NCBI RefSeq assembly: GCF_030253575.1
Contig: NC_080561.1
Span: 3,525,001-3,589,000, forward strand
Direction of reading: 5' to 3'
From: Rhododendron vialii
Lineage: Eukaryota; Streptophyta; Magnoliopsida; Ericales; Ericaceae
DNA: 64,000 bases
Shown piece after piece: positions 443 to 47,310 of the stretch; within the stretch, counting starts at the first letter, position 1; each line of letters starts with the position of its first letter. The notes beneath the pieces are model-generated. The model was not told where the DNA came from and made no database searches. It was given only the letters and a program-made list of their open reading frames with translations. The translations under genes and the position numbers were made by a program.

Positions 443-1082
443 AAATTGATAAATGAGAATGCAAAATAATCAATTTTTTATCAAATCAAACCAATTTTTT
501 TTTTGATAAGTAAATCAAACCAAAGTTATTAAGATTATAAGTAGCTATACGCGAATAATTACTAATGAAATTCAAAATCAAGCATATACAAAATAAAAAT
601 CTTAAAACTCAAATGCTCAAGGGGCCGGGGGTCGGAGCCCCCGGGTCCCAACATACCTCCACCCTTGCTTGTGCCTTGATGCGCCTCGCGCCTATGACAA
701 CTTTTGTAAAGGCCCATGGTCCCCAAAATCTCATCATCCTCACCATGCACACACACATGATCTAACAACGATGGCCAACACAAATAATCCCAGCATCAGA
801 AGATGTCAGGATGATAAAAAGAAACCCCTACAGAACGAGATTTAAGCAAACAAATATCAGCAGCTAAATTTACGTAAAATCAAGGCCAAAACAAACAGAA
901 GCCCTGCTGAAAGCAACATTACCAACAATATTCTGGTTTAGCAGAGGAAAAATTGGCAAGGAGATGTCTTGCTGCACAAAGAACATGGAATTGGTATCAA
1001 CCATGTAATATTATTCTACAACTGAACATCCTTATGGTCTTTTCCTCTTCAATGACCTGCAATTATCACATCCGCAGCTATC
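443..1082. other. 3' flank of PB1 copy 1, duplicated near 12007-12412
   Basis: No gene is seen here. From about 700 to 1080 the sequence aligns with 12095-12420 (shared stretch around catggtccccaaaatctca), so the duplication that made the PB1 copies included several hundred bases of 3' flank. A short GC-rich stretch at 619-650 is a small inverted repeat around ggggccggggg. Confidence 0.6.
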
Positions 1083-2330
1083 TCAAAAATTCGTGGTATT
1101 GGAAACCTTATCACGAACCTTTAGTTTGGTTACTTGATTTCCCAATGAGGTGAGAAGTTGCAGATATTCCCTAACATTCTCGTCACGGGCCATTAAAATC
1201 CAGTCCCCATCCTCATCCTTATACTCAATGTTGAAACTACCAAGCTTGCACTCCAGTATCTTTGACACTTCTTCCTTCAATTCATTAATTCCAGATGTGA
1301 GAGGGAATCGAAATTTTATTGTGGTATCCCCATATGTCGCCTTTAGGTTCATGGACCTCGTATCTTGCCTTTCTGTAAGAAGAGGCATGATGCGAGGATT
1401 TGTAGGCATTGTGTGGAGAATACTAGGCATGGATTGGCTTGGAGCTGGATCAGAACATGAAGGGACTGTCAAGTTAATAGATTCAGAGACATGTCCAGCC
1501 CAAAAAGAACTTCCCGTTGTGTGGGGAACAATAGACATGGGTTGGCTCGGAGCTGGATATGAACATGAAGGGATGGTTGGGTTAATAAATCCAGAGACAC
1601 GTCCCGCCGGAAAAGACTCTTCCACTGAAGGTAACAAATTTCTCAAATCATCTGAAATTCCCGTTGTCTGGGGAACAGTAGGCATGAGTTCGCTCGGAGC
1701 TGGTTCAAAACATGTAGAGATTGTCCACCTATTAGATCCAGAGACATCTTCCTCTAGAAAAACATCTTCTAGGAAAGCTAGCGAATTTATTTGATCTTCT
1801 GAACTTCCCATTGTGGGGGTAATAGTAGGCATGTGTTGGCTCGAAGCTGGATCTGAACATGGAGGGACTGTCCACATAGATCCAGAGATATGTCCTTGCA
1901 GAAGATGCTCTTCCAGTGAACCGAAAGAATTTCTCTTATCTCCTAAACTTTCCATATTCTCACCTAAGATCTGTGTTGATGCTATATGAGGGTGTGAAAC
2001 CTCAGGACCATTGCAATTTGGATAAGAGGTGGACACCGTCCATTGATTGTTTTGTTGAAATGCCCACTCAGAGGAAACCCCTCCTGCATTTTCATTGTAC
2101 ATATATGACACAGAAAAAAACCCATATCAGGATAATTACCCGGGCAAGAATATTGAAAAGTAGGGATTTTTACTATTCCTACCATTGAAGCAATTTCTGT
2201 ATTCTTACCGTTTGGGCCTTCAACAAAATCCCGGAGAAACTCATTCGTCTCCTCAAGATGACCAACCATTTGATTTCCCATCTCGGTCTGCCCATTAGTT
2301 GACAGCATCTTCCATGTCGGTGATGGTTAT
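1083..2330 (-). pseudogene. Linker-repeat and PB1 exon of the NIN-like module, decaying copy 1
   Basis: The minus frame 2111-1083 encodes repeated linker units rich in PSQPMPT and PHTTGSS, then a PB1 domain. The PB1 has the basic LKATYGDTTIKF strand and the acidic OPCA-type loop YKDEDGDWILMARDEN, as at the C-terminus of NIN-like proteins. It parallels the exon at 12413-13785 but shows decay. A net 2-nt shift near 2110-2140 breaks the frame. The good splice acceptor of the other copy is replaced by unrelated sequence upstream of about 2320. A TGA stands where the other copy has the first Cys codon of a CxxCxCxxC tail, so the last 17 residues are lost. It lies 3' of the kinase-RWP-RK exons and was probably their last exon, but I find no phase-compatible acceptor. 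Confidence 0.6.
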
Positions 2331-2444
2331 CATTACTTATTTTTTGGATAGGTTAAAAAATTGGATTATTAGGCCATTACTGGTTCTCCATTTCTCCCTT
2401 CTTAACGATTCAAACAGGTGATTAGTAAGCCAGAGGGGAATTAC

Positions 2445-3981
2445 CTTTTTTTCTTCTGATATTATTTGGCCACCGCTGGATCCCGAACCGCCTACAAATG
2501 CGTTTAAGCGTGGATACACTAACTGCATGAGCAAGAATCAACATAAGAAATTTATATTGTTACATTGATTCCACTGGAGAATAATCGAGATCTACTTGCA
2601 GATGTATTTTGGTTGAAAACAAGTGAAACATGGCAAGCAGTAGATTACCGCCAAGGCTCTCCGCAACATCTCCACGTTTACGGCCATAATGTTGTCGAAG
2701 ATCATCTAAAGTAACACTCGTATTTATCTCTTCGCAGTCTTCTTGTTCTCCTGTTCTTTTCTTCTTAGAATCAGAGACAACAGAGCCGCTTTTATCTCGT
2801 CCGACACGCTGTGCTTTGTTGTTTGCAGAAGCAAATTCACTTGATGATAAGGCTATAGGCCCCACAATCTCTCCTCCTCCTTGTTGTAACGTCCACGCCT
2901 TTGCAATAGTTCCCTGCGACCTTCCCTTACGCTTATGAGACACCAATGCAATCTCAAGGCTCTCCACTACTTCAGCAATTGTAGGCCTTTTCTTTGATTG
3001 ATTATGTAAACACTTGTTGGCAAGTTCGGCAAAGTACTCAAGACTATGTGGTGATATGTCTCCATTCAGAAAGGGATCAATGATTCTGTCAAGCTTTCCC
3101 TTTTTGATTATCATTTTTGCCCAATTAACTAGATTAATTTGCTTGTCGTCGAGTCTTGTATCTATCGCTAGCCGACCACACAAGACTTCCAACAACACCA
3201 CACCGAAGGCATAAACATCAGATTTCTTGGTTAGTCGACAGGTGAGGAAGTAATCGGGATCCAAATATCCAAACGTTCCTTTGACGTTTGTGCTAACATG
3301 GGTTGTTAAATAGGTAGCCATGCTTTTGGATATTCCTAAATCAGAAACCTTTGCTACCATATACTCGTCCAACAAAATGTTTGTGCACTTCACGTCTCGG
3401 TGTATGATACCTGGTAAGGTACTATTATGAAGGTAGTCGAGCCCACGTGCAACGTCAAGGCAAATGTTGAGCCTTTGCTCCCATGTTAGGTGAGATCTAC
3501 TTCCACCGCTTTCTTCTCTAGTACTTGTTTTGTAAAGATAATTGGCGAGAGTCCCCCCAGCCATATATTCGTAAACAATAATCATCTCCTGATTCTCGTT
3601 GCAATAACCGATGAGCGAAAGGAGATTAGCATGCCGGAACTTTGAAAGCAACTTTAACTCTGTCCAAAATTCTTCAGCGCCTTGATTAGACACAGCACTC
3701 AACCGCTTTATGGCAACAATGGTGGTTGTAGCACCGTCGTCAATGTTTGCTTTGTATACCTTACCAAATCCCCCAGTTCCAATAACTAATGCATCGTCAA
3801 AGTCATTAGTCGCTTTTAATATTTGACATAGCGGAATAAAACGACAAGAATCCTTCAATTGATCCACGCCACCATCAATTGCTCCAGCTTGATCAAAGGG
3901 AGTAGGAAACGGAGAGGCATGCGGAATCTCACCCAAGTCAGTGGACAAGGCTCCCGCTTGAACAAAGGGATTCTTCTCCAT
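2445..3981 (-). CDS. CrRLK1L-type protein kinase fused to an RWP-RK DNA-binding domain
   Basis: Exon 1 (3981-2649) starts at the first ATG (MEKNPF); an upstream GTG would add 26 codons. It has no signal peptide or membrane segment. The kinase resembles FERONIA-type cytoplasmic domains and looks catalytically competent: GTGGFGKVYK loop, VAIK lysine, HRDVK, DLG in place of DFG, APE-region GTFGYLDPDY. The same uninterrupted frame then runs through a Ser/Lys-rich linker into TLDDLRQHYGRKRGDVAESL, the first helices of RWP-RK. Exon 2 (2522-2445, phase 1, acceptor CTCATGCAG, donor GTAATT) completes the domain with STLKRICRRFGIQRWP and a basic NIRRKK. RWP-RK proteins normally carry GAF-like or no N-terminal domains, so a kinase fusion is unexpected. 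If the second intron is not spliced, the protein ends near 2337. The kinase could act in the cytoplasm or nucleus; this is inference. Confidence 0.75.
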
Positions 3982-5769
3982 CTCTGAAGCTGATGAGAGA
4001 GAATGAATAATTCCGCTGCCCGGACCCTGCCTGGATCTCCTTGAAAGCTTGGTTACCACGGTGGTCCTTGAATACGAAGGTGATCAAGGGTCTTCGCTAA
4101 CTAGGGAGATATTGTTGGACAGCCACCGGAGAGGTAATCGCTCCACCGGAAGTCTCCCCAAACCCCTGGCTAGTTATGATCGGGCTTCATCTTTTCATTA
4201 AACTCTTTTTTTGGGAAGGGGGTTTGATTTAGGCTTCATTCGGATTTGGGGTTTTCCGTTTAGAACATGGAAGTCTTGATACATGTTTGTTTTGCGATGA
4301 GCCTTTTTGGTCCCTTTGCTTGCAGCTTTGCTTTTTTTGGTTTGACAAGTAACAGCGTTTACCCGCCAATCATTCTGCCGGTTTAGAAAAAAATTTCAAA
4401 CTCAAAAAATATTCACTATATTTGCTTTCAATCATTACTTTCCAGTCATTACTCTTATCTCCAAACATTATTCTCATTTCTCTCTCCACTCATTACCCTT
4501 ACTTTCAATCATTACTCTATTTTTCTCTCAATTCATAATCCCAAAAAATTTCTCAAAAACTCATTTAATTTGCCTGAATATCTATTTTGGAGACTCATGG
4601 GTTGGAGATGCTCTCATCTCCGGTAGTTCATGCCTAGGAAAAATATAAATTTCTATTTTGGCTAATCGCCAAATGATTGAGGAACCCTACAGTCTAGCAT
4701 TTAGCAAAATTAGGGCTAACAAGAGATCTAAAATTTCCAATTCTCATGGACGAGAGAGATCAGCACCGACGACGAAGATTATCACGATGGAAATTAACAC
4801 ATCGGTGATATATCACGAACGACGATGTGTTATACCATGAACAACAGAAACGATGGGAATGTAGAGGCGAGGACTTTGGGCTGTTCACGGTTGGAGAGAA
4901 TCAAAGAGTACTTGCTCACGTTCAGAGTTTATCATCACTGATATGGAGACGTAGAGATGTTCACGATCGGAGTTGTTCACGATAGGAGATGACGCCGACG
5001 ATGATGATGACACAGATGAGGTAGAGCTCCGATGATGATCGTTGATGTCGTTGTCCCGCAACTTGGAAGATGTTGACTGTGTGTCTATGTTTGAGAGAGA
5101 GAGAGAGAAAGAGAGAGGGCGAGGTGAGGCTACAATAACTTGCGGGCTTGCGAGTTTCTTTAACGGAGGGGGAAGTGGCGAGGAGGTAGGCGAGTCTGCT
5201 GGGTCTAGTATGAGGTTTTTGCTTGACAAAACCACAGTTTGGAAGGGATGGCAAGACTGTTGCAAATGCTCTAATATGAACAAGCTTTGTTTTTTTTTTT
5301 TTCCGCCAATATTGTATACATCAATGGGGGTTGGGGGAGTTTTAGTATGCTAACAACCAAATGGGGTTCGATGTACCTCCCCTTGCAAGGAAAGAGATGA
5401 ACTCTTTATATGAACAAGCTTAATCAAGGATGAGCCTTTTTGGTCCCCGCGAACCCTTTCGAGAAGGTGAAACGAAACTTCTCACTCCAATCATCATATG
5501 ATGGGCCATTAATACATTGGAAATTTGACTAGCTGGTGAAACTAAATTTCTAGAAGTTGATAGAAAGAAAAAATGTGTTACATATACGTATAAAAATTGC
5601 ATACTATTTATATGGTAGCTTTGTCCGTCAAGAATTCAAAGAGCAATCACCTCATGAACAAACAAGAAGAAGAAAAATAAACAAGCAAATAAAGAGAGAA
5701 AGCATTCAAACCAAATAACATTAAACCCACCCACAAAAAAGAAAATGAAAAAAAATACATCCAAACCGA
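3982..5769. other. Intergenic, upstream of the kinase-RWP-RK gene
   Basis: No gene is supported. The stretch at 4390-4620 is low-complexity and ends in ggttggagatgctct, the terminal motif seen again in the palindromic element at 24456-24795, so it may be a MITE fragment. A minus-strand open frame at 4885-5283 is Ser/Pro-rich with no recognisable domain. A T-run lies near 5290. Confidence 0.4.
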
Positions 5770-9915: not shown

Positions 9916-11421
9916 TGACCCAAAAAAAAAAATAATTAACGTACGCGTAAACCTGGTCAGTCATGCCCCACCGTGGAAAGAAAACATATGCTGAGTTGAG
10001 CTGGGCCGGAGCTGAGTTTTGAGTGGACCGGAAGGAGTCCATTCTTTTCTGCTGTTCTGCCTTCACCAAATTGTCCAAAATACCATTCACCCTCGTGCCC
10101 TTCACCTCACCAGTCACCACAAAGATGCAAATAAGTGGTCAACAAAAGGCAGAAAAGTTAGTGGGAGTCAGGCAGCAACTAGGGTTTGGCTCAAAACTCT
10201 GATGCATATAGAAGCTCTCCCAAACAAGCTTGAGAAAATTGAACTCAAAAGAATGAGGCTTTCAAGCAGAGAGAAGGGTTTTTTCCAAGGGTGGTTGCCC
10301 TCTCTGCAAAAAACCATGACCAGATCATCTAAGCCAATGATTTCAGCTCAATCAACAGCCCTTTATGTATGTGTGTGTGTATATATATATGGATGATTCT
10401 GTTTGTGGGTATAACTTGGTTTATGGAGAGGTGCTGATCCCATGAACCAAGCCCTTCTTTCTTTTCCTTTTCCTTTCTTTTTTCTGCTGCTGCTGCTGCT
10501 GCTGTTGTTGTTTGTGATACAACATGAGCCAGGACTGCCTGATAATTTTTCCTCAACTATGAGAGGCTGTGATGATATACACATATCTTGAGTTCATATT
10601 TGTTGAGAAAATGGGACTCATTTCTTGGCGGGGCAATTTCGAGGGCCTGTGGGAGAGAAGACTGATTTATTGGTCCTCTCTCAATGGGGCAACTGTTTTT
10701 GCAGCCACGGTGGGAAACCCCTTTTCTTCTCCTATCAAAATACAGATCTGAGCCTCAACCTCTTTCCTGTAATGTTTTGCGTGTGTACATGTATAGCTAT
10801 GAGTGCATAACTGCTGCACGGTAGTACTAGAAAAATTGGGCAAAATCTTATTTTTGGATTATTTGAGAGTTCCATTGATTTTTTTGGTGGATTTTTGTGG
10901 GTCAAGTTGTACTGATCAAGAAACTAATAATTCAGATAAATGAAAGGAAGTGAAAGTGGACGAGGGAGAAAGTACATGGAATCATTTTCTTTTGTTTGGT
11001 TCTTCAAAGATAAAGAGAGGAAAACGAGAAGAACATTACTTCAAAGGGAATTAAATAGTGTCATGTGAGTATAGTAAAAGAAAAGAGAATTTTTTTGATA
11101 TCAATATCAACAGGTCTTAGAGCTTCTGGGCCAGCAGCTCTCACATGAAGATTGAGTTTAGGTTATCAAACAGTCAATCATCTGCAAAAACATCGAACCC
11201 GAAATCAAGCTGTGCAAATTCGAATATCATCTCCCAAAGACATTGAACCCAAAAACAAACTGTGCAAGCTTGAATAGAAAGCGATATCGAAACTGAAATT
11301 CCAAAGGAGATATGGGATATGGTTCAAAGACATGAGAACAGTAATAAACCTAACATAGAGGAGGCTAGGACCGTTGACATTGGGACAGTAGGGTTTTTTT
11401 TGTTTCTCTTGGAATTTTTTT
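9916..11421. other. Intergenic stretch without a supported gene
   Basis: Contains a short CTG/CAG microsatellite at about 10484-10506 and a TG/TA run at about 10365-10390. Open frames (for example 10019-10396) have no recognisable domain. A transcribed non-coding RNA cannot be excluded, but nothing in the sequence demonstrates one. Confidence 0.35.
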
Positions 11422-12006
11422 TTGTTGGGTTTTTTTTGTTTCTCTTGGAATTTTTTTTTGTTTTCCTTTTTGTCTAAGAACCAAACAAGGATGGGGAAAA
11501 CTATTTTCCTTTGTTTCTATACTCAGAACGAAATTTTAGAAATGGGTATACGGTGGCATAAAAGAGAGGAATATTCCAGTATGCTGCATATTTGTGCTTT
11601 GAAAGGGTCTTTGGACGAGGGAAAGGCAGTTCATGGAAATGTGATCAAGAATGGGATAAACCCAGATGCCCATTTGTGCAATTCATTGGTGAGTGTTTAT
11701 GCCAAGTGTGGGCATCACCAATGTGGGCGTCACGTCAATGACGATATGCCTGAACGGGAACGTTTTTTCTTGGACAGCTCAATTGCAGGACTCATAGCTG
11801 ATGGATATAACAGGTATGATATTAGTTTTTACTGCAATGTGAGGAAAGATGGCGTGAGGCCAAATGGGTTTTCTCTTACCTTGGCTACTGCCTTGAAAGG
11901 TTGTTCAATGTGTATGGATATTTGTTATGTGAAATGCAATGAGATGGAGTTTTGCAAAAAGAGCGTTCGGGAACTAGCTTCAACATGTGTACGAGAAGAA
12001 TCCTAA
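11422..12006 (+). pseudogene. PPR protein fragment (copy of part of the 33-36 kb PPR pseudogene)
   Basis: From about 11560 the frame reads SSMLHICALKGSLDEGKAVHG, then NGINPDAHLCNSLVSVYAKCG and RKDGVRPNGFSL, typical of plant PLS-type pentatricopeptide repeats in organelle RNA-editing factors. Only about three repeats remain. The N-terminal 45 residues are low-complexity read-through, and the end loses PPR character (CNEMEFCKKSV). The canonical DMPERDVVSW motif is degraded to DMPERERFFL. It is the intact-site counterpart of the copy at 33390-36150: gagggaaaggcagttc is uninterrupted here but split by a solo LTR there. Confidence 0.75.
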
Positions 12007-12412: not shown

Positions 12413-13785
12413 TTATGGTCTTTTCTGCTTCAATGATCTGCAATTGTCACATCCGCAGTTATCACAAAAATTCATCGTGTGGGGAACCTTGTCACGAAGT
12501 TTTAGTTTTGTTACTTGATTTCCCAGTGAGGTGAGAAGTTGCAGATATTCGCTCAAGTTCTCGTCACGGGCCATTAAAATCCAGTCCCCATCCTCATCCT
12601 TATACTCAACGTTGAAACTACCAAGCTTGCACTCCAGTATCTTTGACACTTCTTCCTTCAGTTCATTAATTCCCGATGTGAGAGGGAGCTGAAATTTTAT
12701 TGTGGTATCCCCATACATTGCCTTTAGCTTCACGAACCTCGTATCTGGCCTTTCTGTGAGAAGAGGCATCATGTGGGGAATTGTAGCCATTGTGTGATGA
12801 ATAGTAGGCATGGGTTGGCTCGCAGGATCAGAACATGGAGGGACTGTCAAGTTAAAAGATCCGTAGAGATTTTCCCCTGAAAGATGCCCTTCTGCGAATG
12901 CTAATGAATTTCTCCAATATTCTGAACTTCCTGTTGTGTGGGGAATAGTAGGCATGGGTTGGCTCGGAGCAAGACTAGAACATGAACCAACTGTCCAGTT
13001 AACAGACCCAAAGACATGTCCCTCCGGAAGAGGCTCTTTCTGTGGAGCTGACAAATTTCTCCGATCTTCTAGTCTTCCTATATTCTCACTTATTTTTTGT
13101 GTTGATGCCATCTGAGGGTGTGGATCCACAAGACCATTTGGATTCGGATATGCAGTGAACTGCGTTGATTGATTTTTCCGTTGAAACGGCCATTCAGATG
13201 AACCCCCAATGAGGTGAGGTATCGTATGGGGAATTGTAGGCATCGTGTGGGGAATAGTAGCCACAGGTGCATCAGAACGTGCAGGAAATGTCAAATTACT
13301 AGATTCACAGACATGTCCCTCATGATAAGGCTCTACTTGTGAAGCTAACAAATCTCTCCTATCTTCTGAACTGCCCATGTTCTGATTTAGCACCTCTGTT
13401 GATGCCATCTGAGATTGTGGAAACACAAGAGCATTGTGATTTGAATAGGCAGTGGACTGCGTTGTTTGACCTTCCAGTTGAAATGCCCATTTAGAGGAAC
13501 CCCGTGCTGCTTCAGTTTCACTGTATACAGCTGGATAACAAAAATCCACATCGCGACAATGACCGGGGAAAGAATCATCAAAAGTAGGAGTTCTTTCAAA
13601 TTCTGCTATTGAACCATTTCCCTTATTCTGAAAGTTCTGGTCTTCAAAAGAATCTGGTAGACACTCATTTGGCTCCAAATTTTGACCACCCATTTCATTT
13701 ACCACCGTGATCTGCCCATTAGTTGATAGCGTATTGAATGTGGGTGATGGATTCTTTTGTCCATGTGGATCAGGGGGTCTCCGAA
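12413..13785 (-). other. Last exon: linker repeats, PB1 domain and Cys-cluster tail
   Basis: Acceptor TTTTCTCCAAACAG is strong, and phase matches the RWP-RK exon at 14155 exactly. Two and a half degenerate units of about 90 residues follow (GSSEWPFQRKNQSTQFTAYP.., EDRRNLSAPQKEPLPEGHVF.., PSQPMPTIPHT). Then comes PB1 with KLKAMYGDTTIKFQLPLTSG and the acidic loop YKDEDGDWILMARDEN. The C-terminus is CDNCGCDNC followed by RSLKQKRP, a possible metal-binding cluster with a basic tail that I do not know from standard NIN-like proteins. Frame is open end to end. Confidence 0.8.
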
Positions 13786-16700
13786 CTGTTTGGAGAAAAG
13801 AAAAACTTACGCAAGAAAGATAATAAAAAAGAAGAGAAGAAATGGATAGTCGTAGCGTCTTTTAACTTGCAGAATTTATGAGAAAAAAGATGGGGAAAAG
13901 GATTAACTCATCCTGGCCTCTAAGATGATACAAAGAAAAAAAAAAACTCTAATATCTGAATCATAGAAACGTAAACCTTTTGTCAGGAAGATTAGGTACC
14001 AATAGTTATCATTGCTCGTGTTCCCTTTCTGTGCAAGTGCCTCAACTTTTGGAAAGGTTCCAAAATTGGATTACTAGGGGATCAAGGTTTCTCTCCATTT
14101 CTCTCCTATATTTGCAATCCAAATGGACGACTAGGAAGGAGGGGGAGGAATTACCGCTATTGCTTCTCCAATTTGGCCACCGAGGAATCCCATGATCCCT
14201 ACAGACGCGCTTAAAGGTTGAGACGCTAACTGCATGAGCAAGAATAAACAGAAGAAAACCGTATTGTTATATTTTTGCTTCCAACAGAATAACCCAGCTC
14301 CTTACAGAGTTAGTTACTTGAAAGCAAGAAAAAGATGGCAAGCAATAACTTACAGCCAAGGATCTTCGCAACATCTTCACGTTTACTGCCAAAATGTTTT
14401 TTGAGAACCTCACGACTAATTATACTGGAAGCAGTCCCTTCCCCGTATTTTGTTTCCCTCGTTCTTTCATTTTCAGGACGAGATGCACTAGAGCCACACC
14501 AATCTTGTCCGCCAGGGTGTGCCCTGTTGTTTGTAGCAGCAAATTCACTTGATGAAAAGGCGATATACCCCTCGATCTCTCTTCCACTTCGCAAGGCGAA
14601 AGGGTGAAGTGAAGATCTGGCAAGCCAGGACATATGGACAAATTGAAGCCATGAAACAAGTTTCTCTTCCGTCGATAGACTGATAACTTCAGCTGGCCTT
14701 TCCCCTCCTAAAGAATACCCCTACATTGTTGCCCAGTTCTGAGTTCAGTAACAGTAATCGGTAAATCTGGAAATTTAAAAAATTGCACTTCTTTCTTTTC
14801 CTAGTTAACAGAACATACTTTTAGTTGTTTATAGAAAATTCGGACTTTATATGGTTTCTTGTGCTAGTTTAAACAGGTATGTTTTCTCATCTTTTTCAAA
14901 TACACAAGAACAACAATGACATCAATGCTCTAACTAGCAAGTATGCTCATACATGTCATTATCTAACCAGTCAAAGGGAACATATAAATACCTCTTGAAC
15001 TAATAGTAGTCACTAGATTTACGTTCATGTTTATTGTCCGACAATTTTGAAAACAATGCATTTAAAGGCAGCGAAATGATGGCTTCAAACAGTGCTAACC
15101 ATTCCAAACTGCGTGAAGCTCTATGTATAATATTCCAGAACTTCAGCCAAGGTCAAATGTTGATGAGAAAAAAGCTTCCTCAACAAGTTTTTGAACTCTC
15201 ATAAAGGGAGTGTTTTAAAGCTCGTGTGAAAATGATTTCACAATCTAAAAAAACCTGAATTGACAAAAGGGATTCATAATCCTTAAAAAGTTAGGCCTTT
15301 AGGTAGAAATCACTGCACTTTCCGTAGCAATTACAACCTACCCATATTAAAAGGACTTGAAAGAAATGAAAAAACAAATGAGTTACTTGTCGAAATGGGC
15401 ACCGATGGATCCCATGTTGCCTGTGGATGCGCTTCACAGTGGATACCAGATTGATCCCATGACGCTTACAGATGCGCTTTGCTGCAGAAGCACCAATATG
15501 CAGGTAAGAAAATTTCATTTTGCTTGGTTCAGAAACAAGAGCGAGATCTCCAGCAACACTTCATAAATTGTAGACCCTTACCACCAAGGCTGTTTGTAGC
15601 ACCTTCACATCTGCTGCAAAAATGTTGTTGGTGATCCTCAAAACTAACACTCATACTTCTGCACTTCCTTTTAAATGTATTTCTCACAAATATTTTTTCT
15701 GAATGAGTTACGATGGGTTCTCCATCTGGTAAGCTGAGAGGCCAATGCAAAGACCTAGTAGACTGCTGTATTTGGATAATTGCAGCCATTTATCAACGTA
15801 CTCATCCATAAATATACAAAATACAGATTCATAAACAGAATGATAACGTCAACCAATCTTTCCTCTTGCAGTTCAAAAAAAAATAAAAATCTTTCCTCTC
15901 GTAATTAAGGGTATGGCTAATCTAGATTTTTTCTCTCTTCTACTAGAGTATCATGCTTTTATCGCACCCTTAAAGACAATACTCGGATCCATAGTTTGAG
16001 TTAAACTTACCATACCATCGAAGACAATACTTGGTACAAACGTATCAGAATCTGGATTCAAACACTCTACTTGAACCAAGGGTAAATTCACCAATATGGA
16101 TCATATTGTAGTTTCAAACACTCTACATGTAGATCAGGTCATGGACTAACCTGAGTAGCCAATCCTCCTGAGCAGTCCATTTGCAGACTTCTTGGCAGAT
16201 CTTGTGATTTCTTTCTTCGTACACAATGCTTGTATGTTAGTGTTCTCTGTCGCACTAAGCGTCTAATGCCGTTAGACTGTTCCCCACTAGGAAGACTCTC
16301 TAGTATTTCGAATGACTTCCATGCAAGGGAATCTGGCGTGTGAAACCATAACTCATTAAATTTATAGTAAGCAACCATGATTGGGGTAAATGATACAAAC
16401 CATAATTTAGTATCACAACCAGAATTTTAGCAGAAAAACGTAGCAGACTTCGAAGTTAGAACCTTCGGTATCAATTGAGATGGACCAGTAAAAGGTAAAC
16501 CTGCGAGTCTAATTATACAAAACCAGATAATGTGCCAAGCAGATGAACCATTTGAATTCACTTTTTACCGTTTGAACACAAGAAGCCATATAACAATGAA
16601 GCTTCTAATTGGCAGAAGAAATAGTATGGTTGCAAATTGAAAAGAGATTAAGATTGCAACTTGCAATGAGTACATTATTATAACTATAGAAACTTACCGC

Positions 16701-19700
16701 CTAGGCCCTTCTCTTCATCTTTATGTCTAGCTCCAAAATGTTGTCCTTGGTCCTCTAAACTAAGTAAATTAATTAAGCAGTCTCTCTCTGATGTCTCTCT
16801 CTTACTTCCTTTCTCTGAACCGTTCTGATCTGCCTTGGCAAATTGTGCTCTATTTTTTGGAGCGTAAATTGCTTGTTGTTCTGACAAGGAAAACATGTCA
16901 ATTATCCTTGCCTCAGGTTAGGGAAGATAGAATTAGAAGGAAAAGGAAAGCAGACTCTATTATGTGAATCATAAGAATTGGAATTTAGTCATGTAAGCTT
17001 AACTTGCTCCCCTTTCTCTGCAAATCCCTCAACTTTGAAAAGACTTAAAAATTGGACTCTTAAGGGACTATGGTTTCTCTCTGTAACGATCAAAACAGGT
17101 GACAAGGAAGGGGTGAGAATTACCATTGTTTTTAGTCCAACGTGGCCACCAATAACTCTGGTGCTGCCTGCAGGTGTTCTTAAACATGGATATGTTAACT
17201 GCATGAGAAAAGAAACATAAGAAATTCGTATCCTTGTATTGCCTCCACAAGACAATAATCTAGCATCTCCTGGCAGAGTCAGTATTGTCGAAAGAAAGAA
17301 AGAGATGGCAAGTAATAAATTACCATCAAGTCTCTTCACAACTTCTTTATGTTTCCAGCCATGTTGTTGGAGATCCTGTACGCTACATAAACTCATAGTT
17401 ATCCCTTGTCTGTCTGGCGTTTCTCTTGTATTTTTCCTCTCGTAATGAGATGCAGTAGAGCCACTTTGATCTTGTCTGACAAGGTGTGGTTTATCGTTTG
17501 TACCAGCAAATTCATTTAATGACGAGGCTATAGGCCCGGCGATCTCGCCTCCATCTGGTAAGGCTAAAGTCCGAGGAGAAGATCTCGCAAACTTGGAGAT
17601 ATGGATAATCAGAAGCCTTGAATCAAGTTTCTCATCCATAGATAGACTGATAACTTCAAATAGTCTTTGGTCTCCCAAAGAATACACCTTCCTTGTTGCC
17701 CATTTCTGAGTCCAGCAAAGGTAATCAGTAAAATATGTCTCCTAATTTTTCCCCGAAGAGGAACAATAAAAACCTTGATAACCTAATCAGTGATTAGCCT
17801 CCATAAATGTCATGGACTCACTTATTGAAGAAGACATATGACCTTATAGGCCCGTTATCATTATCGTAGTACACCAAGAATCACTTTCATTTTGTGTCTT
17901 ACAATTTGAAAGCAATGCTATTTAGAGGCAGCTATATCCTGATGGCTTAGGCTATGGTGCTAAACGTCGCAAACTGCAGGAATGGTCTAAGGAAAAACAC
18001 GCTAAAGAGTAGTATCCCAGAACTTCAGACTTCAGTTAAGTTCAAATATTCATGACAAAAAGTTTTATAATAAAAAATATTGTATAAATTATACAATATT
18101 ATTATTATAAGATTTTTTTGAATTATTCGATCCAGATTATCTTCTAAACCTTACTATGTTTAGAGTTCAAGAAGATGGTGGGTATTGTTTGAAGACTAAG
18201 TTCCACAGAGTACAAGTTGAAAAGGCCACAAATTGAGACAAACTTTAAGATCTTAATAGATGGTCCCTTCTTCATTGAAACCAATGAATCTAATTACACA
18301 TTCATGTCCATTCAATCTAAGGGAAAGTTGGACACATGTATGATGTATGCTAGCTAACACAATGAGATGCTCATTAAAGGCATAGACATTTTGCAAAAGG
18401 AAGTTTGTCCACCATATGATTTCAAAATTTAATGACCTGAAATGATAAAAGGAAATTAAAATCTAAGTGAATTATGAACCAACTGCCAGCGTAATTTGAC
18501 ATTACTACGGCCAGAATGATTCAGACTTTTAAAACTAATTGACTGAAAAGGAAATATAAGAAAGTTACTTGTAGAAATGGCCACCGATGGATCCCGTGTT
18601 GCTTATGGATGCGTTTCACTATGGATACCCGATTGATCCCATGGTTCCTACAGATGCCCATTGCTGCATGAGCACCACTATATAGGTAAGAAAACTTCAA
18701 ATTTGTACTACTTCCATAAAGAGAATAATACAGCATGTGCTTTGCCAGAAGCATTAGATGGTTCATAAATGAACACGAATGAAAGCAACATTTTATCAGT
18801 TGTAGAAGCTTACCACCAAGGCTCCTAGCAGCGCCTTCACATCTTCTGCCAAAATGTTGGTTCTGCTCCTCAAATACTACAATCATAGTTCTGCACTTTA
18901 TCTTTAATATCCTTCTCACCCTTTTTCCCTCTGGAAGAGACATTGTAGGAGAGCATTGATCTGTCCTAGCTGCATGCGGTACATTTTTCGTAGATTGCTC
19001 TAATGGATCAAGAAGCACTATGTGTCCTCCATCTGGTAAGCCAATAGGCCCACATGAAGAGCTAGAAGGCTGCATTATTAGGGTAGTTGAAACCATAATT
19101 CAATATACTAGTCGACAAACAGAACGATAACTTCAACTAAACTCTCTCCTAAAGAACACCCCTTCATTGTGGCTAATCTAGATTTCTTTGCATTTCTTTA
19201 CTACATCAAATCATACCATTTCAATGCAACATGTAGTGCAAAAAAATCAGAATCTAGGTTCAAACACTATACTTGAAAAAAGGTTAAATTCAACAATAAG
19301 GATCATATTAGCATTGTTTGAAGACCTAGTTGGAAAACATGTATGCGCCCTTGCGAGCTAATCTGGAAAAGGACAAACCTGAGCGGTCAATTTTCCCAAG
19401 TATGTAGGCGATTTTGTCACTCTTGGTTCAACTCCGTTAATTTGCATAACTCTTGGCAGATCTGGTGATTTCTCTTGTTGTACACAACCCTCAAGTTTTA
19501 ATCTTCCCGGTGACAATAAGTGTACACAGTAATTAGGCTGTTCCCAAGGTGGAAGAATTTCTAGTACTTCGAATGATTTCCATGAAGTGGAATCTGTCGC
19601 ATGAAATCCCAGATCATAAATAGCTACAATGGATTAAATTTTGAGGCCATTAGCAACTACATAAACCACCAGGGTGTAACTAACACAAACCAAATTTCAA

Positions 19701-22700
19701 TAGTGGAACCAGAAGTTTAGCAGAAAAGCATTGGAGACTTCGAAATATTATTATCAATCAAGATGGACTACTACTTGGCACAAAATCTTTTGTTGAAGAC
19801 AAACGTAAACTTGCATTTTCAATTGTACACAACAAGATAATATACAAAACAAATGAACCCTTTCAATTCATATTTCTGTATTTTTAAAATTAGAATCCAG
19901 ATACATAAACAACTGAGCTTCTCTTTTGCAGAAGAAATATGATAAAGATTGAAAAGATGATAAAGATTGCAAGCAGTAATACATATTCTGATCAATAGTA
20001 GAAAGCTTACCATCAAAGCTCTTTGCAGCATCATCGCGTCTACCGCCACAATGTTTTTGAAGATCCTCTAAACCAAACATACTATTAGTAACGCATTCTG
20101 ACTCTCCCCTATTTTCATTCTCTGGAAGAGACACAACAGGGCCAGTCTGATATGCTCTGACAAGATGTTCTTTGCTTTCAGTAGCATCAAAATCCCGCAA
20201 TTTTCGTTTTGTAGAATAATCTAAACTAGTTCCACTCTTGATGAAGCATTCTCCGTTCAATCCCTCTGCTATATCTTCCTTCTCTGAATCAAACCCAATA
20301 GGACCGGTCTGATGGTCCATCACAAGATGTGCTCTGTTGTCTGGAGGATCAAAATGCGTCGATGATCTTCTAGTCGTTGAATCAACTAAACTATATACAC
20401 TCTCAGTCACGCACCCTCTGTTTGATTCCTCTCTCATATTTTTCGTCTCTGCATTAGACACAAGAAGGCTGCAATGATATGCGCTGTTGTTTGTAGCATC
20501 AAAATCCAGCAAAGGTTTTTGTTCAGATGAATCAAGTTGCACAATTTCTCCTCCATCGGGTAAGGCTGTAGGCTGAGGTGAAGACGTGTGAATGTGAATA
20601 TCCATGTTCAAAGAGCGCAGTAAAGCAGCATCATATAGGTCTCTGTGGTTGGTAGTAAGTACGATGATCTGTTCGTCGCCACAGGTCGACAACAGGCCAT
20701 CAAGGAACTTCAACAGACATGAGCCCGTCAACTGCAGCGAAAATAACACAACAGCAATGGAATTAGATTAAAACAAATAACTTTATCCCTTACCTACCGG
20801 CTACCATCCCGTTAACTTCTACTACCAAATCTTGACTTTCAACCATCTTATGGCACAGTGGCGGCGGGATGATGCAGCTGAGTGGTGGATGTTTTTTTTT
20901 TTTTTAAGAATTCAGGTGTCCAAGCTAGCTTACGTAACTTATCTTGGGAAACAAATCTCACCGCTCATTTACGGTGGTGGTCGTAATTAAAACCTTGTCA
21001 AGCCTTGACAACTAAGCCGACCCAAATTATCCAACGCTGCTATGGGATCTGACGGTGCACAGATGGCAAGGGCCCACTCTGGTCCCTTACGGATAATCTG
21101 TTATAATCATCTACACATATCGAATTAAGCTGATTTTTCACAGAGACATTCGAAAAATTATTTTTAAATTATTGAACGGCTCAGAATTCAGATATCCAAT
21201 CCTAAATCTTGGAGGTTTTCTCTCATTCCCCCTCCCCAAGCCACCATCCGCCACCCCTCCTCCACCGAGTAGCCCGACAGATTTTGGAGGTAGTGCTTTG
21301 AAGATCGTGGTCGCTCCATCCCGCGGAGTGAGAGATTTAGCAGGAACGGAGCCAGGATTTTACCCTAGCAGTGGCGAAATGCGAAGGATTAGGAGATGCT
21401 GCCAAGCGGGGGTGCTTGGCTGCAGTGCTAAGCGGCCGATCTGACTGTTCATCTCGGCACAAACGGCTCGGATCTAATCTTAGCGCAAAAATGGCCGGAT
21501 TGGCTGCTTGACACCACTGCCAAGCACCCCCGGTTGGCAATATCCCGGGTCCGAATAATAAAAACTATAGAAAATGATGGTGGTCATTTGCACATGTAAT
21601 ACGAAAGAGACTAATTTAGTTTTGGAATAATATTTTGGGTCTTCGTTCTTAAAAAAAAAATAGAGGATTTAGGACTACTATATAGCAAAAAATAAGGAAA
21701 AAAATCTAGCGGTAGCGAGTCCATATAAATTGGAGATATTTTTTTTTACATATAATGATTGCATTTTTCAAAATTCTTGCCGTGGCAGACGCCCCTACTA
21801 GACCCCCTGGCTCCATCCTTGAGATTTAGGTTAGTGAATGAAGTCTACTTCGATACAGCAGACTCCCTACGTTTTCGCTACTGGTGTTTCTCTTTCTTTT
21901 TTTTTGGTTCTCTTCTTTGATACCTCACCTCCACATAAGGAAATTTTATGCATGTCACCAAGTTCCGTTACATGCGCCGCAACGGTAAGGGAATGAAAGG
22001 ATGAAATTGACATAAAAACGGTTCGAGTATTGCTTTGAAACTAGCTAGCTATATTTGACAAGGACCGAAAAATTAGATAAGCCAACAACAACAAAAAAAA
22101 AAAAAGTTTTGACAATATTAAGGTCAATGGTAGTCTGCTTGCTTGGTTGTTGATATAAAAAGATATTTAGGGTAGCATCGAGACTCAATATTGATGACAT
22201 TATAAATTCCGTTAACAATTTAACAGAGAGTTAACGGAGGGGAGGTTTATGCATATTGCTAGAAAAAAGTAAGGAAAGTTAGAGTCATTTTAGAAATCTG
22301 TGGGGAGATCTCTGTATTGTCAAAACCTTCAGGGAGGTCAGTGTGATTTACCCATATATTCAAAGTAAAAAAACAAATACCATCGGTCAACTTGAGTTGC
22401 AAGTAAAAGGGAAAACAAAGTAAATAAATTAAAACAGCACTGATGAGTCATTAATCAAAGGTGGACTCAAGGGAGAAAAAGACTTCCTCTTGTTTGGTTT
22501 TGAAAAGAACAAGAAAAAATAGATTATCAGTCAAGAAAAACAAATTAAGCATTGCTTAATTCATTGTTTTTTCCTCTTTCATTTTCTTCCGTCGCCTTCC
22601 CCTTATCTAGATTTTTTTTCTTTTAGAATTCCATTAGATCTATCTCCAAACCATTTTTATTTCTCCAAAATTAGCGTCTTGCCCGTTCGATGAACAGAGA

Positions 22701-25700
22701 CGGAAAAAAAAAAATTAGTGAGAACCCTTTTTTTGGTTGTCCTGTGCTTGGCATGTATGGCTCTTGAAATTTTACTCTATTTTTTTGCCAAAATTAGAGA
22801 AATTCCAAAACAACAGAAATCTCAAGATAAGAAGAAAGAACATAGTTTCATGCAAAATAAGTATATACACTACAAGAAAAATGAAAATTAGTGACGAAAA
22901 AGTGGCGACGAAATTTAATTTTGTCACTAAATGAGTATATTTGGCGACGAAAAAATAAATTCGTCACTATTTTGATAACTTTCGTGACGAAATAATTTCG
23001 TCACCAATTATGCCTGTTTAGCGACGAAAAAAATATTTTCGTCACTAAAGGTACCCATTTGGCGATAAAATACATTTTTCGTCACCGAAAACTTAAAAAA
23101 GGTGACAAAATTATTTTTTGTCGCCAAAGATAATCATTTTGTGACAAAAAATATATTTCGTCGCCAAATGTGAGCAATTTAGTAACGAAATATTTTTTTC
23201 GTCACCAAATGCTTAACTTTGGTGACGAAAAATAATTTCGTCACCATTTTAACGCTTTCAGCGACAAAAAATATATTTCGTTGTCAAATGGGTACCTTTC
23301 GTGACGAAATTTATGAATTGCGCTTTGTCACTAAATGTATTTCGGACATAACTCTTTATTAAAATCTCCGATTGAGATAATTCAAATTGGGTTTGAACAA
23401 TAACTCAATTGCCTACAACTTCATGTTTATCAAAATTGCTAATTTTAATGTTTAAAGGTCCAAAATTACATTCGAAATACATTTTCATGGTAAACATATG
23501 TGTTATATATTAGATATTTCAAATATTTACTGAAAAGTGTGTGTAGTGCAGTTGGTTGGTGCTTGCGCGAAAAACTCAAGGGACTCGGGTTCGAAACCCA
23601 GCAAGAGCAAGAAAGATGGATTTCTTTTCCCATATGAAAACATCTTTCGCAACGAAAAATTTCGTCACCGATTTCTTATATTAGTGACAAAAAATTTCGT
23701 CACCAATGTGACCCATCGGTGACGAATTTTTTCGTCGTCAAAAAGCACAATAAGTGAGGAAAAAAAATTCGTCACCAATTAGTCACTTTTTGGTGACGAA
23801 ATATTTTGTCATCAAAAGGCACTATAGGTGACGAAAAATAGATTTCGTCACCAGGTAGGAATCCTCGACAACCTTTAGTCGACAAATTTTTTTTCGTCAC
23901 CTATATTATTTGTGACGAAAAACATGCAATTTGTGACGATTTTCATTCGTCACCCAATTGAATTTTTCTTGTAGTGATATTTGTTATATTATTGATTGAA
24001 TCTAATTCCTTTTCAAATTTTATACATTTCATAAAAAAATAGAATCAATAATGAATAAAAATTTAAAAATTTAAGAAAGTTTCATGTAGGAGAGAGTTTT
24101 CTTTTATTTTAGCATATTGCCTGTTTAGAACTTTTATTTTGTTGTCATGTACATCAATGGATCAGTGCATATTGCTCTTGGAATTTACTATCTTTTCTCG
24201 CAAAATAATTAAGAAAATTCTACAACAATAAAAAAAAGAAATGAAAAAATGAGATAGGTTTGAAGGAGCATTTGTTATGTTATTAATTGAACTTAATTTC
24301 CTCTTCAAGCTAAATAAAGTATATATTTTATATTTTGTAAAAAGTGTAGAATAATAAAATAAAAAGATGAAAATTAGAAAATTACATGTAGGGGAGAAAG
24401 TTGAGAGAGTTTCGTTGTATTATAGGTAATAACTATATTCTTGTAGTATATAGTATAAATAGATAGAAAATGGATGTGGCATATTGAGAAGAGATTTTGT
24501 AATTTATTTCTTATTTTCTTCAATTTTTTGTACTTTATGGGAGAATTTTGGAGGGACCATCATTTTTTTTAGAGATGTGGTCTCCAAATTTGAGGTGTAG
24601 TCTTCATTTTTGGACACCCAATAGTAAATTTCGAGACCAAATATCTAAAAAAGACAATGGATTCCTTCAAAAAAATTCCATAAAGTACAAAAGTTGAAGA
24701 AAATATATGATAAATTATAAAATCTCCAATCAATATATCACATGCATTTTCTATTTTGAAGAAATAGAGATGGGTTGGAGATGCTCTAATATTTTTCCCC
24801 TTCCCCCCTAAAATAGGAATTAATCAAATAACCAAGAGGAGTATAACCCACTATTATGAAACTTTTACTACAGTTCTTTTTAGGAGTTCATACCAATTTT
24901 ATTTTATATCTTATAATTTATAATATTTTATGTTATTTTAAAAACATTGCATTATATATAGAACTAATTGAAATCTATCAAACAATATCTATATTGGATA
25001 TAAAATTTATTACCGATTTAAGGATATAACTAATTTTTTTATCTGGTTAAAATAGAACGAAAGACTATTAAATTGGGACGGAATACTACTAAAAACAACT
25101 AGCTAACCTCGTTCGCGAGTCTGTGAAGCATCCCAGCACAGTGATCAAAATCTTGAATCGCAATCAAGGAGCGATTCCTGGTGGAGACCAGCACATTCCT
25201 CAGCTCTGAGATGGAGGGCATGCTCGCAAGGTCCAAATGATAGATGTCAAATTCAAGAAAGCTGGCCATGGCTGCGATTAAGCTCGATCTGTCGGTACCA
25301 GGAGAGTCGTTCAACAACAAGTAACCCCTCTTCCAAGCCTTGCCTATCCTCTTGTAAAACTCCTTGTCCCTTGCGAAACCCAACAAGTCCGTAATTATTC
25401 CCTGGTTTTCCGGGTCCATCGCCAGCTTCTCGAGCTTCGGCGAAGGATGTTCGAGATCCATTGATTGGTTTGATTCCCAACAACCCCGTGCTGTGTGCAC
25501 CAGCTTCGTCTCATTGTCCCTTTCCCTAAGGTAGTCCTCGAGTACAAAGGTCTTCATCTGCTGCTGATCAAACCTGTTGACGACTCTCTCATCCGCCCGT
25601 TCGTCCTCGCCGAGCCACGCCGTCCGCTTCTCCTCGCTCGCTAACTTGCTCATCCTCACCGCGGCCGCAGCGTGACTCTCTCCCTCGCACGTGGTGTCGG

Positions 25701-25956
25701 ACTTGCTCCTAATCACGTGATGGTAATAACATGGAGGATCGAGACCCTGGTTGGTATGGTCGTACAAGTAGATATAGCAGACGAATGACTCGACTGGGTC
25801 GGGTGAGAATGGTTTCTGTTTGTCTAATGTCATCCATGAGTATCTGATTATGATTAAGACACTGATTACGAGAATGGCCTTTACGAGGGAGAAGGGAGCT
25901 GCGGATGGGAACAAGTTCAACGTTGAGTCCCATATGCCGCCGATTGGTCCATTCAT
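12413..25956 (-). CDS. Candidate AAA-domain / multiple RWP-RK / PB1 fusion gene
   Basis: Proposed exons: 25956-25108, 20731-20011, 19623-19379, 19069-18814, 18663-18569, 17705-17324, 17198-17124, 16880-16698, 15481-15387, 14720-14354, 14229-14155, 13785-12413. All have AG acceptors and GT donors and matching phases, and sum to 4716 nt (1571 aa). Order of modules: membrane segment, degenerate BCS1-type AAA domain, then four or five RWP-RK units split over exon pairs, then a repeat-rich linker, PB1 and a CxxCxCxxC tail. The AAA C-part and the first RWP-RK half lie in one open frame, so that fusion is visible in the DNA. Weak points: exons at 16376-16151 and 15765-15582 fit only with alternative splicing, and no in-frame acceptor is seen for the first of them. 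The locus could be two or more genes, or an expressed pseudogene. RWP-RK binds DNA in nitrate and nodulation signalling; PB1 mediates oligomerisation. Confidence 0.55.
14155..14738 (-). other. RWP-RK module 5 (exon pair before PB1)
   Basis: Exon 1 parallels module 3: AEVISLSTEEKLVSWLQF, HPFALRSGREIEG, then ISREVLKKHFGSKREDVAKI before GTAAGT at 14354. With the acceptor homologous to module 3 (start 14738) an in-frame TAG follows after five codons. An AG formed by that same TAG (start 14720) skips the stop and keeps phase. Exon 2 (14229-14155) reads FSVSTFKRVCRDHGIPRWPN, an intact recognition helix and RWP. It joins the PB1 exon in phase. Confidence 0.7.
15387..16880 (-). other. RWP-RK module 4 region (duplicate block of 18569-20731)
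   Basis: Exon 16880-16698 (QQAIYAPKNRAQF, then LSLEDQGQHFGARHKDEEK) parallels the 3' end of exon 20731-20011. Segment 16376-16151 parallels 19623-19379 but lacks an in-frame acceptor. Exon 15765-15582 (WPLSLPDGEPIVTHSE, SFEDHQQHFCSRCEGATNSL) and exon 15481-15387 (AKRICKRHGINLVSTVKRIH, RQHGIHRCPFRQ) parallel module 2, including the doubled helix. RWP is changed to RCP. Exon 16880-16698 can splice in phase directly to 15481-15387, forming one full domain. Confidence 0.6.
17124..17705 (-). other. RWP-RK module 3 (exon pair)
   Basis: Exon 17705-17324 begins KWATRKVYSLGDQRLFEVIS and LDSRLLIIHISK, a stretch I cannot assign, then ALPDGGEIAGPI and SVQDLQQHGWKHKEVVKRLD. Exon 17198-17124 gives VNISMFKNTCRQHQSYWWPR. 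The recognition helix is altered (RQHQSYWWP for RQHGIxRWP), so DNA binding may be lost. Acceptor CTCATGCAG and donor GTAATT are the same as in the kinase fusion's RWP-RK exon. Confidence 0.65.
18569..19069 (-). other. RWP-RK module 2 (exon pair with doubled recognition helix)
   Basis: Exon 19069-18814 starts PSSSSCGPIGLPDGGHIVLL and ends FEEQNQHFGRRCEGAARSLG before GTAAGC (phase 1). Exon 18663-18569 (95 nt) supplies MGICRNHGINRVSIVKRIH and KQHGIHRWPFLQ. The CRxHGI recognition-helix motif therefore occurs twice in one exon, where normal RWP-RK has one. The RWP triplet is intact. Confidence 0.7.
19379..19623 (-). other. Unidentified exon, duplicated at 16151-16376
   Basis: Acceptor ATTGTAG, donor CAG|GTTTGT, 81 codons in phase. 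It reads DSTSWKSFEVLEILPPWEQP, later KSPDLPRVMQ. The counterpart at 16376-16151 reads DSLAWKSFEILESLPSGEQS and KKSQDLPRSLQ, so the exon was duplicated with its neighbours. I do not recognise the family. Preservation of frame in both copies suggests it was coding at the time of duplication. Confidence 0.5.
20011..20731 (-). other. Exon: AAA C-part joined to the first RWP-RK half-domain
   Basis: Acceptor TTTTCGCTGCAG; 240 codons; ends phase 1 before GTAAGC. It begins LLKFLDGLLSTCGDEQIIVL, TTNHRD and LLRSLNMDIHIHTS, the AAA region after Walker B. Sensor Asn is kept, but the RPGR arginine-finger stretch is RSLN. It then switches at ALPDGGEIVQLD to three roughly 55-residue repeats (FDATNN.., FDPPDNRAHLV.., FDATESKEHLV..) and ends with FGLEDLQKHCGGRRDDAAKS, the first helices of RWP-RK. 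No second-half exon (LKRICRQHGI-RWP) follows directly; the next usable exon is the unidentified one at 19623-19379. Confidence 0.75.
21400..21539. repeat. Small inverted-repeat element (MITE-like)
   Basis: About 38-bp imperfect terminal inverted repeats built on gccaagcgggggtgcttggc and its complement enclose roughly 60 bp. It lies in the 4.4-kb intron between the two AAA exons. No clear target duplication was found. Confidence 0.5.
22868..23976. mobile_element. Non-autonomous CACTA (En/Spm) transposon
   Basis: Ends are CACTACAAGAAAAAT and its exact inverse, flanked by the 3-bp target duplication ATA, the hallmark of CACTA elements. Inside, 22884-23335 and 23640-23960 are arrays of a short motif, (G)TGACGAAAA and its complement TTCGTCAC, in both orientations, resembling the subterminal transposase-binding repeats of this superfamily. 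The 1.1-kb element has no transposase frame. It sits in the large intron of the AAA fusion gene. Confidence 0.9.
23536..23617 (+). repeat. tRNA-like / SINE-head sequence nested in the CACTA element
   Basis: tagtgcagttggttgg resembles a pol III A box, and ggttcgaaacc (23588-23598) is a perfect B box, spaced about 40 bp apart as in tRNA genes. The flanks do not pair into an acceptor stem, so this is a tRNA-derived fragment and not a functional tRNA. Confidence 0.45.
24456..24795. repeat. Degenerate palindromic MITE
   Basis: The left half (ttttgtactttatgg, agaaaatggatgtg) and right half (ccataaagtacaaaa, cacatgcattttct) are imperfect inverted copies over about 130 bp each. The right end has ggttggagatgctct, a terminal motif also at 4605-4620. 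Confidence 0.55.
25108..25956 (-). other. Exon: membrane anchor and first part of a degenerate BCS1-type AAA domain
   Basis: Starts at ATG 25956. Residues 24-43 are a hydrophobic anchor (LVKAILVISVLIIIRYSW), as in plant AAA-ATPases of the At3g28580 type in mitochondria or ER. Residues 204-245 match the core GKAWKRGYLL..SSLIAAMASFLEFDIY, but the Walker A GPPGTGKSS has become NDSPGTDRSS, losing the key Lys. The Walker B region reads LIAIQDFDHC in place of a VIEDIDC pattern. The exon ends at GAG before GTTAGC (phase 0). The following 4.4-kb intron holds a CACTA element. A GA-microsatellite sits just upstream of the ATG. Confidence 0.75.

Positions 25957-47267: not shown

Positions 47268-47310
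<43 letters not shown>

Follow-up and report, generated by a model that had tools for sequence, protein, structure and literature searches.

The DNA analysed here, which we call the window, is a stretch of 64,000 nucleotides from Rhododendron vialii (contig NC_080561.1, referred to below as C5, positions 3525001-3589000). On its minus strand, between positions 25956 and 12413, lies a gene in which a BCS1-type AAA domain is linked to RWP-RK units and a PB1 domain of the kind found in NLP regulators. The central feature is exon 20731-20011 (-), a single open frame that passes from the second half of the AAA domain (beginning LTGSCLLKFLDGLLSTCGDEQIIVLTTNH) through a module with the motif LPDGGEIV, here termed the R module, into the first half of an RWP-RK domain, which ends LEDLQKHCGGRRDDAAKSFD|gtaagc, with a phase-1 gt donor. 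This join had been proposed in an initial annotation made from the letters of the window alone, and it recurs as one open frame in nine other full-length copies. A chance join or an assembly error is ruled out because all ten diverged copies share it, and the presence of an AAA/RWP-RK chimera at this locus is well supported.

Fourteen exons can be joined into a coding sequence of 5082 bases, encoding 1693 amino acids with no internal stop, and we infer from the sequence a single transcript running through all of them. The initial annotation had joined 12 exons into about 1571 residues; the joining in consistent phase stands, but the count does not. Junctions 25108/20731, 20011/19623, 17124/16880 and 14155/13785, which it had singled out, all have gt/ag borders and matching phases. 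All exons are on the minus strand, and their borders were also followed in four array copies (A to D) described below. Exon 1 (25108-25956; 283 codons, phase 0) lies immediately downstream of a (CT)n tract and encodes a hydrophobic segment at residues 19-45 and the first half of an AAA domain of the BCS1 type, here degenerate; copies A and B have its gt donor at the corresponding position. The fused exon 2 (20011-20731) is followed by exon 3 (MID; 19379-19623), which is specific to the array and open in all seven other full copies on C5; copies A and C retain its splice sites. Exon 4 (c; 18814-19069) combines an LPDGG module with an RWP-RK first half and has a donor kept in all three of copies A, C and D, and exon 5 (d; 18569-18663) supplies a second half with the KRI/HGI motif twice. 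Another LPDGG module and RWP-RK first half make up exon 6 (e; 17324-17705), for which 12 other copies over query 1-126 contain no stops, and a degenerate second half (CRQHQSYWWPRW) makes up exon 7 (f; 17124-17198). Exon 8 (g; 16698-16880), an RWP-RK first half, retains its AG and GT in 4/4 copies (A to D), as does exon 9 (MID'; 16151-16332), a second copy of MID, in 5/5 matches within the same copies. Exon 10 (c'; 15582-15765) carries an LPDGE module and a first half, exon 11 (d'; 15387-15481) a second half, exon 12 (e'; 14354-14720) a first half read from acceptor 14720, and exon 13 (f'; 14155-14229) a second half with a phase-1 acceptor, matching the ordinary NLP gene L008. Exon 14 (12413-13785), whose close copies are 85-88% identical, contains a linker, the PB1 domain, a Cys-rich tail (CDNCGCDNCRSLK) and the stop. 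The tail (window 12413-12500) is kept in most of the 7 aligned copies. Exon e' carries an in-frame TAG (14723-14721) if the paralog-kept acceptor 14738 is used, and acceptor 14720 skips it; one TAG each is also present in four other e' copies (C5:3011687, 3492897, 3389004 and 3193723).

Against Pfam, the joined 1693-residue model passes the cut-offs for AAA (26.5 bits, cut-off 21.2), RWP-RK (9.3e-29, in 4 stretches) and PB1 (9.9e-12), which bears out the proposal that an AAA domain, several RWP-RK units and a PB1 domain lie in one consistent frame. Speaking against the AAA call in the fused exon, the two AAA exons taken apart fall under the cut-off, with no match for exon 1 and 14 bits for exon 2. 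When the AAA stretch is joined, BCS1 structures rank first (6sh3, E 4.6e-14), and the first ~50 residues of the fused exon are 40-67% identical to ordinary AAA genes elsewhere in the genome (57-65% for the best-scoring ones). The initial assignment to the BCS1 type therefore stands, but the residues for ATP binding have been lost. The window gene reads DSPGTDRSS at Walker A and IQDFD in the Walker B region. In a count made without any motif as a selection pattern, the Walker A lysine was absent from 17/17 matches in 14 array loci (L009-L022), 15 of which read TDRSS or TDRSR, one TDRWS and one TDTSS, whereas GTGKSS is found in all 6 ordinary loci. At Walker B, ED is replaced by QD or KD in the array, and by KN in one locus (L017). 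The degenerate Walker motifs rule out a functional ATPase, and the array AAA domain is, on its motifs, a pseudo-ATPase.

The initial annotation had also described the protein as membrane-anchored. Hydropathy suggests that residues 19-45 of exon 1 form a hydrophobic segment, which may be a membrane anchor; no Pfam family, including the BCS1 N-terminal domain, matches this exon. Because its start, roughly the first 118 residues, matches none of the other array copies, membrane anchoring would be a trait of this copy at most. Outside the array, exon 1 has a single match, at C5:2122940 (47% identity over residues 52-121).

The RWP-RK units are of unequal quality. The best is the last one, exons 12 and 13, which together score 58.7 bits and cover positions 2-48 of the 49-position profile (12.1 for the frame of exon 12 and 32.8 for exon 13 alone). 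Exon 5 scores 24.7 bits in its own frame and 34.4 when joined to exon 4, exon 11 scores 34.5 and, with exon 10, 35.2, and exons 6 and 7 joined reach 24.7, under the cut-off of 29.3. The half-domain in the fused exon is too short to give a Pfam match at E<=1 on its own, and against a weak profile of five ordinary halves it scores 1.3 bits, which 36 of 2000 shuffles equalled. Its residues 213-240 score 28.4 bits against a profile of 11 other array first halves, among them one that makes up a complete RWP-RK domain with its second half, with 0/500 shuffles equal; the same profile gives 12.7-32.6 bits on the other nine copies of the fused exon, again with 0/500 shuffles for each. RWP-RK in this half exon thus escapes Pfam alone and is recovered by the array profile. 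The first half is real, but the tandem RWP-RK array of the initial annotation does not continue directly from it, as the next exon is MID and not an RWP-RK second half. Neither MID nor exon e matched any Pfam family. The PB1 domain is detected in exon 14 alone (2.7e-12), and by eye it has a D-x-D-x-D pattern (in the stretch DEDGDW) and a lysine (in FVKLKA). NLP-NLP binding by the PB1 domain of Arabidopsis NLP7 is attributed to K867, D909, D911 and E913 (PMC6393987). Judged by eye, the window PB1 appears to retain the kinds of residue used in such contacts.

The provenance of the parts can be traced through their introns. Ordinary BCS1-like AAA genes (L023-L028) are interrupted by an intron at the corresponding position, immediately in front of LTLSGLLNFIDG, from which it follows that the long intron 1 of the window gene is the old AAA intron. 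It contains an element at 22868-23976 (-) with the ends CACTACAAGAAAA and TTTTCTTGTAGTG, TAT/TAT flanks and GTGACGAAA repeats, which from its ends we take to be a non-autonomous CACTA-type element; the intron was probably enlarged by it, and elements of this type might have helped exon shuffling. In the one NLP gene compared (L008), RWP-RK is split as AAKSLG|G..tgcag|TGTGCC in phase 1, and both residue and phase agree with those of the window junction 14354/14229. The intron shared with the BCS1-like genes, the RWP-RK intron shared with L008 and the acidic stretch of PB1 together show that the gene, as read from its exons, is an AAA gene whose second exon continues into an NLP-derived RWP-RK/PB1 cassette.

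Set beside the known systems that it resembles, the gene departs from each of them. With NLPs it shares the RWP-RK domain split by a phase-1 intron and the C-terminal PB1 with its acidic stretch, but it has an AAA domain in the N-terminal place, several partial RWP-RK units and the array-specific MID and R modules, which sit between the AAA and the NLP-derived parts; for the nitrate-responsive (GAF-like) N-terminal region of NLPs, no such Pfam family was found at E<=1 in the 1693-residue model. With BCS1-like AAA ATPases, of which the nearest in plants are presumably the OM66 type, it shares the AAA core, the N-terminal hydrophobic segment and the intron before LTLSGLLNFIDG, whereas its Walker A and B motifs are degenerate, RPGRMD has become RSLNMD and the C-terminal part is replaced by the RWP-RK cassette. 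The split RWP-RK and the PB1 of the window gene contrast with the RKD type, which is characterised by RWP-RK in one exon and no PB1; we take full-domain RWP-RK exons elsewhere in the genome, such as L002, L003, L005 and L006, to be of that type. Short genes with an RWP-RK half and a PB1 domain also occur outside the array; in the one that was read, L055 on C2, the acceptor phase and PB1 are as in the window, but the RWP-RK second half and PB1 share one exon and there is no AAA or kinase partner. Further genes of this kind are inferred from neighbouring matches on C2, C1, C8 and C12 and at C5:28.6 Mb.

A search of the genome (532.6 Mb in 13 contigs) with the fused exon returned the window and nine further full-length copies, defined as matches that start at query position 1, 2 or 6 and extend to 239, at C5:2.82-3.31 Mb, with 59-66% identity and no stops. 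This recurrence rules out a single locus: the gene is one member of a tandem chimeric gene family on a Rhododendron chromosome. Among the 20 C5 matches of at least 170 residues, the window included, 16 are open, one has a single stop and three have 8, 14 and 17. All ten full-length fused exons read open, and each gap in their plain DNA alignment is a multiple of three. Neutral simulation along their tree predicts 3.15 stops per copy, and 0/1000 runs kept all ten open, the best run keeping 7; the ten were chosen as full-length matches, which leaves some ascertainment in this test. A full MID exon follows within 2 kb in 8/10 copies, the exceptions being C5:2864219 and C5:3237715. Outside C5, exon e matches one place only, on C1, and MID matches none.

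Comparison of exon order across a 200-kb stretch (C5:2755001-2955000) shows that copy A (2890514-2877905) has the same order as the window gene, with one additional c/d pair. Splice sites mostly recur at homologous places across copies A to D; copy C has AA rather than AG before its fused exon, the acceptor of exon c in copy D lies 3 bases upstream, and exon f' ends elsewhere in several copies. Some array exons (L010, L012, L013 and L017) read AAA second half, R module and AAA first half in one frame. Retrotransposon-like frames are present within the array. At C5:2792648-2793628 (-), an AP2-like frame (PF00847 27.2 bits, under the cut-off of 33.3) runs into the tail of an AAA first half (RSLILIQDCDQCAGML).

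The AAA domain is not the only partner joined to the cassette. In the same window, a frame of 507 residues at 2563-4083 (-) carries a complete kinase domain (PK_Tyr_Ser-Thr, 3.3e-49) that continues into an R module and then the first half of an RWP-RK domain; an RWP-RK second half at 2464-2523 (-) (VSVSTLKRICRRFGIQRWPN..) and a PB1 exon with in-frame stops at 1035-2352 (-) follow. We take the kinase to be a CrRLK1L-type receptor-like kinase; relatives on C1 and C2 are 63-74% identical and match the kinase end only, and the chimera frame differs from that type in continuing into an RWP-RK half rather than stopping after the kinase. A second kinase-RWP-RK fusion, at C5:3481092, is 90% identical over query 1-194. 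In a third frame, at the left end of the window (1-477, -), a kinase end leads into an R module (query 7-158), within an open frame of 1842 residues that leaves the window leftward. At C5:3059981-3059235 and C5:3175503-3174757, one frame of at least 249 residues combines a kinase end, the end of the AAA N-terminal region and R-module sequence, and the AAA stretch of the former is confirmed at 7e-11. No kinase match was found upstream of the window AAA gene among the 150 of 1036 candidates that were scored. We know of no kinase/AAA-RWP-RK-PB1 layout in plants. No AAA- or kinase-RWP-RK fusion is reported in the accessible text of the literature searched on RWP-RK and NLP genes and on this genome, a set with subscription papers mostly outside it. 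By term search, the main text of a Rhododendron pangenome paper mentions neither RWP-RK nor NLP (PMC13326988).

More widely, the genome contains at least 103 RWP-RK matches, counted as exons. RWP-RK second-half and PB1 matches cluster at C2:4.15-5.0 Mb, C2:46.0-46.75 Mb and C1:38.0-38.4 Mb, clusters that would represent a big expansion of NLP-derived genes. Outlying relatives of the array PB1 exon and its linker, with RWP-RK matches alongside, are seen at C5:9.519-9.522 Mb and C1:12.652-12.655 Mb. The expansion seems to be transcribed in the genus, because the full-length transcriptome of R. lapponicum is described as having 120 RWP-RK transcripts, which make up 3.81% of transcription factors and place the family among the top ten (PMC7174332). 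This would concern the expanded family as a whole rather than this gene in particular. Two further frames in the window are distinct from these genes: a weak PPR-repeat frame at 11392-12006 (+) (Pfam 0.0035), perhaps a gene remnant, and an open frame of 760 residues at 45825-48104 (-), presumably resembling a FAR1-type protein.

We hold, with moderate confidence, that these genes form a fast-evolving chimeric family acting as a PB1-mediated partner or decoy of NLP regulators. The sequence shows that a BCS1-like AAA gene kept its own intron and that the next exon, once past the AAA core, passes directly into RWP-RK half exons and PB1 of NLP origin; one protein of 14 exons and 1693 residues would be made from it. 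The dead AAA domain could serve as a folded scaffold, perhaps forming oligomers or bound to membranes, while the PB1 domain would bind the true NLP regulators of the plant and keep them in complexes that are unproductive or bound to membranes. The protein would then be a competing partner or sponge of NLPs; we favour this role over that of an activator because the RWP-RK units are weak, the AAA scaffold is dead and there is no nitrate-sensing N-terminus.

Confidence goes no higher because the weak constraint on the amino acids counts against a firm function, and several observations weigh against the decoy reading. In a maximum-likelihood codon model, whose likelihood agrees with iqtree, omega (the nonsynonymous/synonymous rate ratio) does not differ from 1 in the fused exon (0.92; 10 copies, likelihood-ratio test [LRT] 0.45), the PB1 linker (1.13; 6 copies, LRT 0.68) or exon e (1.17; 4 copies, LRT 0.43). 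It lies weakly below 1 in the first AAA half (0.74; 13 copies picked by an open-frame pattern including DRSSLI, LRT 3.30) and in PB1 (0.72; 7 copies, LRT 3.27). The corresponding value for ordinary AAA genes is 0.14 (6 genes, LRT 151). Strong purifying selection is not supported; Nei-Gojobori (NG86) estimates of 0.65-0.79 for the fused exon are superseded by the maximum-likelihood 0.92. Positive selection is likewise unsupported: model M2a is no better than M1a in the array (twice the difference is 1.91 for the fused exon, 2.27 for its R part and 1.64 for AAA; 5.92 for ordinary AAA genes). To these are added the decayed copies among the 20 C5 matches, the stop in the PB1 exon and the different exon 1 of copy A, a relative (L056) with the R module and RWP-RK half and no AAA domain, and the shifted acceptor (14720 rather than 14738) that the e' exon of the window itself requires. 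Overall, the frames are held open beyond neutral expectation, the domains are slightly constrained at best and the linkers drift.

Much of this would also be expected if the array were a gene-fragment nursery, in which tandem duplication and unequal exchange yield short-lived chimeras whose frames are open owing to their recent descent and which have no selected function. Values of omega near 1 in the linkers and the fused exon, the decayed and single-stop copies, the loss of catalytic residues and the retrotransposon-like frames inside the array all fit such an origin. We nevertheless consider it rather unlikely, as no neutral run kept all ten fused exons open, albeit with the ascertainment noted, AAA and PB1 both lean below 1 in omega and the splice sites are mostly conserved. 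A further question is whether one gene is involved at all, for the introns and internal repeats would permit separate starts, and both L056, which resembles the fused exon without AAA, and the short RWP-RK-half/PB1 exon standing alone on C2 (L055) are precedents for smaller units. The locus would then comprise two or more transcription units, an early-ending AAA-R-RWP half protein and separate RWP-RK-PB1 genes downstream. Such a division is improbable given that the fused exon itself holds AAA and the RWP-RK half, ends at a conserved phase-1 donor and is followed by MID in 8/10 copies, and that the 14-exon frame runs without a stop.

Some plant receptors display integrated domains, known as integrated decoys, as bait. 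By analogy, the kinase, AAA and RWP-RK/PB1 modules might be presented to a partner protein, or to one from a pathogen, as its target, in bait-type immune or self-recognition proteins. The tandem array, its fast change and the variety of partner domains, including a kinase with a full Pfam match, are reminiscent of such systems; however, Pfam finds no nucleotide-binding leucine-rich-repeat receptor (NLR), leucine-rich-repeat (LRR) or other receptor domain in the joined model of the window gene, and the M1a/M2a comparison found no positive selection, so we regard this as very improbable. In a broader reading, the array would be a chimera factory that repeatedly places an NLP-derived RWP-RK/PB1 cassette behind kinase, pseudo-AAA and kinase-AAA modules. 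We advance this generalisation only as an unlikely, speculative one; if true, it would mean that single proteins connect a kinase or AAA scaffold with DNA.

The scale of the phenomenon is apparent from the at least 103 RWP-RK matches of this one genome, which contrast with the usually few genes of other plants, as in the RWP-RK row (9, 14, 16, 7 and 14, the first column being taken as cranberry) of a table in the cranberry genome paper (PMC4076063). In a single array of the R. vialii genome, in-frame joins of an NLP cassette to AAA and kinase domains have arisen many times. Should the proteins not be made, the array would clearly exemplify frames that stay open for long although constraint is weak. 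Should they be made, they would offer natural domain swaps with which the roles of PB1 and RWP-RK could be probed separately from nitrate sensing, and they would show how new multidomain proteins arise in tandem arrays.

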